A stretch of DNA of 64,000 bases from Cryobacterium sp. HLT2-28 (GTDB taxonomy: Bacteria; Actinomycetota; Actinomycetes; Actinomycetales; Microbacteriaceae). The stretch covers positions 1-64,000 of the forward strand of contig NZ_SOFH01000020.1 of NCBI RefSeq assembly GCF_004402495.1. The letters run 5' to 3'. Under the pieces are notes generated by a model that ran no database searches, was not told the origin of the DNA, and saw nothing but the letters and a program-made list of their open reading frames with translations. This document shows, piece by piece, positions 24,937 to 27,746 of this stretch. Made by a program: the position numbers and the translations under genes. Position 1 is the stretch's first letter; each line of letters starts with the position of its first letter.

Positions 24937-25952
24937 GTCCCGGCCTGTCCGGTTCTGCCGGTCTGTTCGCTGTAGACGAAGCGGGTGAGTTCCTCGACCG
25001 GTTCGATCGTGCCTGCCTCGGCGAAGTCGACTGCCGCCTGCACCTCGGCGTCCACCTCACCCTGGATGGCCGTCCAGATCTCCTCCGGAAGGTCGCCGGC
25101 GGCCTCCAGGGCCTCGCGCAGCAGGTCGATCGGATCGCGTTCGACCCAGCGGGCGACCTCGGCCTTGTCCCGATAGCGCTCGGGGTCGTACATCGAGTGC
25201 GCCCGGAAACGGTAGGTGCGCAGCTCGAGGAAATGCGGTCCGCCGCCGCCGCGGATGGCATCGACGGCCCTTCGGGCCGCCGCGTCGACGGCGAGCACGT
25301 CCATCCCGTCCACCGACCAGGCCGGGATCTCGTAGGCGGATGCCTTCAGCGCGATATCCGTCTGGGATTCCGAGAGTCGCAGCGCGGTGCCCATCGCGTA
25401 GAGGTTGTTCTCGCAGCAGAACAGCACCGGCAGCTGCCAGAGCGCGGCCAGGTTCACGCTTTCGTGGAACTCACCCTCGGCGACCGCGCCCTCGCCGAAG
25501 AAGCACGCGGTGACGCGGGAGCGGCCCGCCATCTTGTCGGCGAGGGCGAGGCCCACCGCGAGGGGCAGCCCGCCGGCGACGATGGCGTTGCCGCCGTAGA
25601 AGCGGGTGGCCGCGTCGAAGAGGTGCATCGATCCGCCCCGCCCGCGGCAGCAGCCCTGCTGATAGCCGTACATCTCCGCGAGGATGGCTCCGGCGGACAC
25701 GCCGCGGAGCAGGGCGTGGCCGTGCTCCCGGTAGGTTGCCAGGACGGCGTCGTCGGGGCCGAGAACGCCCAGCACGCCGGCCGCGACCGCCTCCTCGCCG
25801 ATGTAGACGTGCATGAACCCGCAGATCTTCGCCGCACTGTACAACTCGACGCATTTCTCCTCGAAGCGCCTGACCCTGAGCATGTCCTGCAGCAGCCGGC
25901 GGGAGTGCTCCGGGTCGGCGGCGGCCCGCCGCCCGGTCGGCTGCCCGGTCAT
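24933..25952 (-). CDS. pdhA: 2-oxoacid dehydrogenase E1 alpha subunit
   Basis: Thiamine-diphosphate-binding subunit, 339 residues. The cofactor motif runs from GEG (153-155) to ENN (181-183), the phosphorylation-loop-like segment is [14 protein letters not shown], and [13 protein letters not shown] starts the conserved core. ATG 25952 sits where the restored acs frame would end (ATGA). Because of a frameshift in acs, the upstream acs frame now reads through into this gene without a stop, giving a potential 946-residue fused frame. I annotate pdhA as a separate protein because the homology begins here. Confidence 0.9.
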
Positions 25953-27746
25953 CGCGGCACCTCCACGGTCGACGTGTCCCCCTCGGGCAGGCCGAGCTCG
26001 CGGGCCTTGAGCAGGCGGCGCAGGATCTTGCCGCTGCGGGTCTTGGGCAGGGCCGTGGTGAACTCGAGCTCCCGGGGCAGGTCCGAGCCGTTTGCGGGCG
26101 AAACCGATGATCTCCAGGCGAAGCTGTTCGGTGGGGTCGAATCCCGCCTTCAGCTCCACGAAGGCCTTGACGACTTCTCCGGCGACGGGGTCGGGGATGC
26201 CGATGGCCGCGGCCTCCGCGACGGCCTCGTGTTCCATCAGTGAGCTCTCCACTTCGAACGGGCCGATCAGGTGCCCGGAGGACTTGATCACGTCGTCCCC
26301 GCGGCCGACGAACCAGTAGTAGCCGTCGGCGTCCCGCTTGGCGAGGTCGCCGGTGAGGTACCAGCCGCCGACGAAGCAGCGGCGGTAGCGTTCCTCCTCG
26401 TTGAGGTAGCCACGGAACATCGACGGCCAGCCGGGGCGCAGGGCCAACTCGCCCACGGCATCCGGTTCGGTGACGAGCACGGCGTCTGCGCCGTGCAGCA
26501 CGGGTTTGCCCTCGTCGTCGCGGGCGACCAGGCCGGCCTGGACGCCGGGCAGCGGCCGGCCCATCGAGCCGGGCCGGATCTCCGTGGCGGCGTAGTTGGA
26601 GATCATGATCCCGCCGGTTTCGGTCTGCCACCAGTTGTCGTGAACGGGCAGGCCGAACGCCTCCTGACCCCACACCACGACCTCGGGGTTGAGCGGCTCG
26701 CCGACGCTGGCGACGAGGTGCAGGGCCGAGAGGTCGTGGGCGGCAGCCCGGTCGGCGCCGGCTTTCATCAGCATCCGCAGGGCGGTGGGGGCGGTGTACC
26801 AGACGGTGACCTTCTGCTCAGCGAGGATGCGGTACCACCGGTCGGCGTCGAGCTCTTCCTCATCGACGATGGCGGTCACCCCGTGGACGAGCGGCGCGAT
26901 CACCCCGTAGGAGGTTCCGGTGACCCAGCCCGGGTCGGCGGTGCACCAGTAGACGTCGTCCGGGTGAAGGTCGAGCGCGAACAGCCCGGTCGCGTAGTGC
27001 GCGGTGACCGCGTCGTGCACGTGGATGGCGCCCTTCGGGGTGCCGGTGGTGCCGCTCGTGAAGTGCAGCAGAGCCATCTCCTCCGGCCCGGTCGCGGCGA
27101 TCTCACCATAGGGCGGGGCATCCCTCATCAGGGCGGCCAGGTCGAGGGTGCCCGGCTCAGGATCGCCCGCCGCATCGACCAGGAACACGTGGCGCAGTTC
27201 GGGCAGGCTGTCCCGCACGGGGGCGACCTTCTTGCGGTACAACGCCCGGGTGGTGACCAGAGCCCGGCCGCCGCCCAGGTGCAGGCGTTGCCGCACGGGT
27301 TCGGGGCCGAAGGCGGAGAACAACGGGCAGAAGACGCTCGCGTTCTTGAAGGTGCCCAGTACCGCCACGTACAGCTCGGGGACGCGGCCGATCAGCGAGA
27401 ACACCCGGTCGCCGCGTCCGATGCCGAGCCCCCTCAGCACGCTTGCGAACCGGCTGCTCTCCTCGGCGAGCGCGGCGTAGCTGAGCGAGTGGGTGGAGCC
27501 GTCGGCCCGCACGAACCGCAGGGCTTCCCGTTCCGCGTTCGGGCCGGCCGCGTGCCGGTCGACGGCCTCATGGGCGATGTTGAGCCCCCGACCTCCCGGA
27601 AGCCCCGACAGCCCGCGCCTGGCCTCGTCCCAGGTGAAGCCGGCGCAAGTGGCGTCGTAGTCGACCAGGTTCGGCCGCACGATCAGTGCGGCCAGGTCCT
27701 TCCGGATCGTTGGCCAGCGCGTGCCGGACTCCATGCCTGCCGTCAT
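25949..27746 (-). pseudogene. acsA: Acetyl-CoA synthetase (AMP-forming), frameshifted near its 3' end
   Basis: AMP-forming acetate/acyl-CoA ligase. Intact up to about residue 555: P-loop [58 protein letters not shown]. Near 26081 the frame breaks. After RKRLGP the expected C-terminus ([20 protein letters not shown], then [12 protein letters not shown] and a stop at 25949) continues one base out of register. The frame as given lacks the TRSGK catalytic lysine and runs into pdhA. Either a one-base insertion/two-base deletion inactivated the gene, or it is an assembly error. ATG 27746 is chosen for the TGGGGG upstream. Confidence 0.8.

Follow-up and report, generated by a model that had tools for sequence, protein, structure and literature searches.

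The accessory acs gene of an acs-E1α-E1β-E2-ACP operon in Cryobacterium sp. HLT2-28 has in all likelihood suffered a recent loss-of-function deletion, and the long open frame that now runs from it into pdhA, the gene of the PDH E1 component alpha subunit, would be an incidental consequence. From sequence comparison, the case looks like ordinary gene decay that produced a frameshift pseudogene, rather than like a designed fusion protein. The window, by which we mean the whole stretch of DNA analyzed, comprises 64,000 nucleotides of contig NZ_SOFH01000020.1, and the operon, formed by acs, the two E1 genes, E2, and a small acyl carrier protein (ACP) gene, occupies its positions 22216 to 27746 on the minus strand. 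The window's own genome is referred to as G000 and its locus as L145; other G numbers denote compared genomes.

Fused frame and domain content

The list of open reading frames contains a minus-strand frame of 946 codons (27773 to 24933) in which acs and pdhA are read together. Pfam models detect parts of both enzymes in this frame, with AMP-binding (PF00501) at residues 74 to 457 and E1_dh (PF00676) at residues 630 to 922, while AMP-binding_C (PF13193) is incomplete, matching 57 of 76 profile positions at residues 507 to 566. With the G019 protein as tblastn query, acs was split over two frames, residues 1 to 561 lying in the first and residues 560 to 601 (97.6% identity) in the second, which places the A10 region out of frame. 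The native acs C terminus is complete in that other frame, where its stop overlaps the pdhA start as ATGA at 25949; in the fused frame, the stretch 25946 to 26076 is read as a linker. Given that the A10 region, with the lysine that we take to be the catalytic one, is out of register, the fused frame is predicted to lack this catalytic element. An earlier reading of the sequence alone had described a 946-residue frame uniting acs with PDH E1 alpha and lacking the catalytic lysine, as well as a C terminus preserved out of register up to the ATGA at 25949. These points were confirmed by the open reading frame list, the Pfam domains, the tblastn alignment, and the sequence itself.

Even without its C terminus, the window's acs scores above the cut-off of the NCBIfam profile NF003313 (PRK04319, acetate--CoA ligase), with 814 versus 729 bits over the stretch 26094 to 27746. 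It differs from this family in that the C-terminal A10 region, and with it a complete C-terminal domain, is not in frame. The remaining genes of the operon are intact (Table 1). Inspection of the start context of pdhA showed a purine-rich GTGGAGG upstream of its ATG, from which we infer that translation of E1-alpha probably still begins at this ATG, while the 946-residue fusion may also be made, as a by-product.

Table 1. Features of the acs-pdh operon in the window
Feature	Position	Strand	Support
acs 5' part before the break, encoding acetate--CoA ligase residues 1 to ~557	26077..27746	-	NF003313, tblastn
Location of the 8-bp gap seen in alignments with other genomes	26076..26077	-	Pairwise alignments with G019 and G076; genus DNA search
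Stranded native acs C terminus with A10 region, ending in TGA that overlaps the pdhA ATG	25946..26076	-	tblastn
pdhA, PDH E1 component alpha subunit, 338 aa, intact, own ATG	24933..25949	-	TIGR03182, 433 bits (cut-off 393.85)
pdhB, PDH E1 component beta subunit, intact	23956..24936	-	NF006667, 406 bits (cut-off 321)
E2, dihydrolipoyl acyltransferase, intact	22455..23963	-	PF00198, PF02817, PF00364
Acyl carrier protein, 80 aa, ATGA overlap with E2	22216..22458	-	PF00550, 35.4 bits (cut-off 20.8)

Nature and age of the lesion

In pairwise DNA alignments with both G076 and G019, the window lacks 8 bases near 26076 (8 being 2 modulo 3), immediately before a conserved REL-EF segment. The gap can be placed in three equivalent ways, and inspection reveals a 2-bp CC microhomology. 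To survey the genus, we used window positions 25950 to 26200 (251 bases) as the query of a DNA search, in which 10 relatives aligned across the site. In nine of these, the aligned stretch is longer than that of the window by exactly 8 bases (G076, G019, G071, G066, G008, G026, G016, G006, and G030). The tenth, the divergent G011 (69% identity), which has a stop-interrupted acs, shows a net surplus of 7 bases in a gappy local alignment, and its translation has the same uninterrupted loop as the other relatives. The alignment of G025 stops at the lesion site. A slip of a single base is ruled out by the 8-bp gap relative to G019, to G076, and in 9 of the 10 genus alignments. Thus, the frame break that the sequence-only reading had put near 26081 is real in this comparison, but it is not the one-base event described there.

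The junction pattern was present in 3 of 183 loci, all of them copies of the window's own DNA, showing that it is lineage specific. The nearest relative found, G076, is identical to the window at 1,771 of 1,846 aligned bases (∼96%) over acs and a short flank. It keeps the 8 bases, and its acs is broken instead by a 1-bp gap at codon 307, ruling out a lesion inherited from an ancestor shared with G076.

We propose that an 8-bp deletion, probably arising by slippage or through microhomology at the CC repeat, took part of the loop that precedes the A10 motif and, by changing the reading frame, separated the catalytic-lysine region from the rest of the protein, which would abolish thioester formation. 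The ATGA overlap between the acs stop and the pdhA start puts the shifted frame in register with pdhA, and with no stop codon in between, this frame stays open to the end of E1-alpha.

Substitution patterns suggest that this event is young. The dN/dS of acs between G000 and G076 is 0.17, compared with 0.10 in each of two pairs with intact acs, G006-G071 and G008-G066, an excess that is not significant (Fisher P values of 0.30 and 0.35, on rounded counts); two further intact pairs gave 0.12 (G016-G030) and 0.15 (G019-G008). Residues 304 to 310 and 554 to 566, which flank the two breaks, were excluded from these estimates. No sign of long decay in the G000 acs was found in this comparison, and after the break there are 0 differences between G000 and G076 in the 35 codons counted. 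Taken together, the low dN/dS and the unchanged codons suggest that the lesion is probably young and that acs was constrained for most of its history. Between G000 and G076, pdhA (0.13) and pdhB (0.09) also show low values; values for E2 (0.43 in both G000-G076 and G006-G071) were not used, as they come from gappy linker alignments. Given that pdhA, pdhB, and E2 are open and that dN/dS is low in the first two, nothing clearly marks the entire operon as dead, and the loss of acs alone could have been favored by selection. With 8 bp missing, the codons after the break matching those of G076, and unfused relatives, the fresh inactivating indel suggested by the sequence-only reading is supported.

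The same unblemished codons would also be expected if acs were intact in the real genome and the draft assembly had omitted 8 bases of a GC-rich stretch. G000 is a draft of 32 contigs, and the gap is known from its assembly alone; in addition, a few 1-bp frame differences between G000 and its relatives occur elsewhere on contig C30. Antonov et al. (2013, PMC3711429) expect singleton frameshifts validated by BLASTp to reflect errors of sequencing and not true indels, which also favors an artefact. However, a gap of 8 bp is not a homopolymer slip, and its size and sequence make an artefact less likely. Furthermore, the completeness of G000 is put at 100% and its contamination at 0.01%, the lesion falls within an N-free contig of 190,926 bp, and other members of the genus have acs interrupted at other sites, although these interruptions likewise come from assemblies. 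On balance, we regard an assembly or sequencing error as unlikely, and a true deletion as the better account of the 8-bp gap. Outside the window, near position 165000 of C30 in G000, a gene is split; aligned with its open counterpart in G019 (C61:98834-100114), it carries two additional single bases. The screen for interrupted genes in G000 includes start-extension artefacts and served only to pick sites for alignment.

Arrangement of acs and pdhA in relatives

A comparison with the orthologous operons, proposed along with the sequence-only reading, found relatives to be unfused. Across 92 loci tested for the arrangement of acs and pdhA, the two genes were separate in 80, a sample drawn mostly from the best 80 of 577 relatives, and fused in one, the window (L145), while 11 loci were set aside. 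The latter comprise G076 and the G025 record L045, both broken; six loci with no pdhA in the stretch examined; two with pdhA further away; and G019 (L128), whose acs-pdhA overlap defeated the classification rule but whose genes are separate by tblastn and translation. A fused frame common to relatives and carrying a conserved linker was therefore not found, the window being the sole fused case in the 92 loci.

Reading upstream from the acs stop, the pdhA frame stays open over 125 bp or more in 34 of the 80 separate loci (again mostly from the best 80 of 577 relatives). The same holds for 10 of the 17 loci in this group whose acs exceeds 70% identity. Since the frame is so often open, the fused frame needs no special cause, and an indel of the right phase near the lesion site would often be expected to yield one. 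The case shows how, in a GC-rich genome, such an indel at an ATGA gene overlap can create a long and plausible fusion frame, which could enter automatic annotation as a two-domain enzyme.

These data also bear on the proposal, raised in the sequence-only reading, that recoding yields both separate and fused proteins. A programmed or corrective +1 ribosome shift near the break would give a working synthetase besides the fused protein; the native C terminus is indeed intact one base out of register, and on inspection a slip would in principle be possible at the nearby GCC-CCG-G. Nevertheless, the junction occurs in no locus other than copies of the window's own DNA, intact relatives use an unshifted frame, acs in G076 is broken elsewhere, 80 of the 92 loci have separate genes, and by inspection the protein restored by a +1 shift would still be 3 residues short. 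A conserved shift site across orthologues was looked for in the translations of relatives, the 92 loci, and the 183-locus junction search and was not found. Clusters of programmed frameshifts require such a conserved site (Antonov et al. 2013, PMC3711429, Table 1), and its absence here speaks against recoding as that table defines it. Hence, we consider recoding exceedingly improbable.

The recent frameshift pseudogenes and adjacent-gene frame transitions cataloged with GeneTack (PMC3711429) resemble the window in that an indel strands a conserved C terminus, in the lack of a conserved shift site, and in the overlap of adjacent genes. The window differs from those cases in that its shifted frame matches that of the downstream gene, generating one long open frame. 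A literature search by titles and abstract openings returned nothing on an acs-pdhA fusion.

State of acs in the genus and context of the operon

A recognizable acs (match at E ≤ 1e-110) is present in 17 of 57 genus genomes, G000 included. In seven of these, a full-length uninterrupted acs is followed by pdhA (G019, G066, G008, G016, G006, G071, and G030), whereas the other ten (G000, G076, G025, G011, G070, G026, G075, G060, G073, and G079) are interrupted in different ways. Besides the 8-bp gap of G000 and the 1-bp gap of G076, G025 (L135) has two in-frame stops in acs, followed by a deletion that puts acs and a damaged pdhA into one frame. G011 has one stop in acs and no pdh genes in the stretch examined; G070 has frameshifts and a decayed C terminus; G026 has several frameshifts in acs and one in pdhB; and in G075 (L142), whose genome is 87% complete and 7% contaminated, a deletion joins acs in frame to pdhB. 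Some of these interruptions may be assembly errors, above all those of G075 and G076. This accessory acetate/PDH operon seems to be at an early stage of loss in the window and at later stages in relatives, making the order of gene loss testable.

The G076 region that matches window positions 22454 to 29458 (L141/L152) contains five frame-breaking indels in coding sequence, three of them in neighboring ABC transporter genes: besides the one in acs, alignments show two of 1 bp in the ABC ATPase gene, one of 8 bp in the permease gene, and one of 2 bp at the E2 stop, which joins E2 to the ACP frame. They reflect either local decay or local assembly errors.

The in-frame joins created by deletions in G025 and G075, and by the 2-bp gap in G076, could be taken as precedents for a functional new fusion, in which selection keeps a 946-residue protein with the ACS N-terminal domain tethered to E1-alpha; consistent with this, the fused frame is open and pdhA is intact. 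Yet the linker consists of acs sequence read out of frame, the fused frame no longer encodes the catalytic-lysine region, and the window is the one fused case in 92 loci. Moreover, the loci of the other joins are decaying or doubtful, considering the stops and deletions of G025, the quality of the G075 assembly, and the several nearby frame breaks of G076. A fusion maintained for its function therefore has hardly any credibility.

The acs homologues of G060 (L138), G073 (L139), and G079 (L140) show ∼65% identity, lack the C-terminal domain from a breakpoint apparently common to all three, and have no pdh genes in the stretch examined. They contain 0 stops in 468 codons compared, their pairwise dN/dS is 0.13 to 0.15, and Pfam finds only AMP-binding in the G060 copy, the one that was run. 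Judging by these sequences, the homologue is possibly a stable adenylation-only protein, and its apparent constraint indicates that some function may survive when the C-terminal domain is lost. Pushed further, the thioester-forming C-terminal part may have been lost repeatedly under favorable selection in the genus, with an adenylating domain tethered to E1-alpha (which would also be made alone) keeping a role, e.g., in local acetyl-AMP formation at the complex, and with these three genomes as the stable end of the path; we think this very unlikely compared with simple inactivation of acs.

The window shares gene order, orientation, and close or overlapping genes with the acs-E1α-E1β-E2-ACP operons of actinobacteria and other phyla, from which it differs in the 8 bp missing from acs and in the frame fused to E1-alpha. 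The first four genes occur together in 57 of 80 loci (L039 to L118) from several phyla. In this set, an ACP match (tblastn E ≤ 1e-3, often at 28 to 45% identity) directly follows E2 in 45 of the 50 loci with at least 280 bp after E2; by tblastn it was not found there in L054, L056, L069, L097, and L115. Among the 18 loci L128 to L145, which cover genus members, G059 from the same order, and the window itself, ACP lies directly 3' of E2 in all 10 operons with room for it. A literature search did not find a paper on, or a published name for, this operon.

G000 also encodes a second, uninterrupted acetate--CoA ligase homologue (contig C10, 42% identity), an aceE-type PDH (contig C20, 1,355.5 bits), and five further E1_dh matches. 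With this backup, loss of the operon acs should be tolerable.
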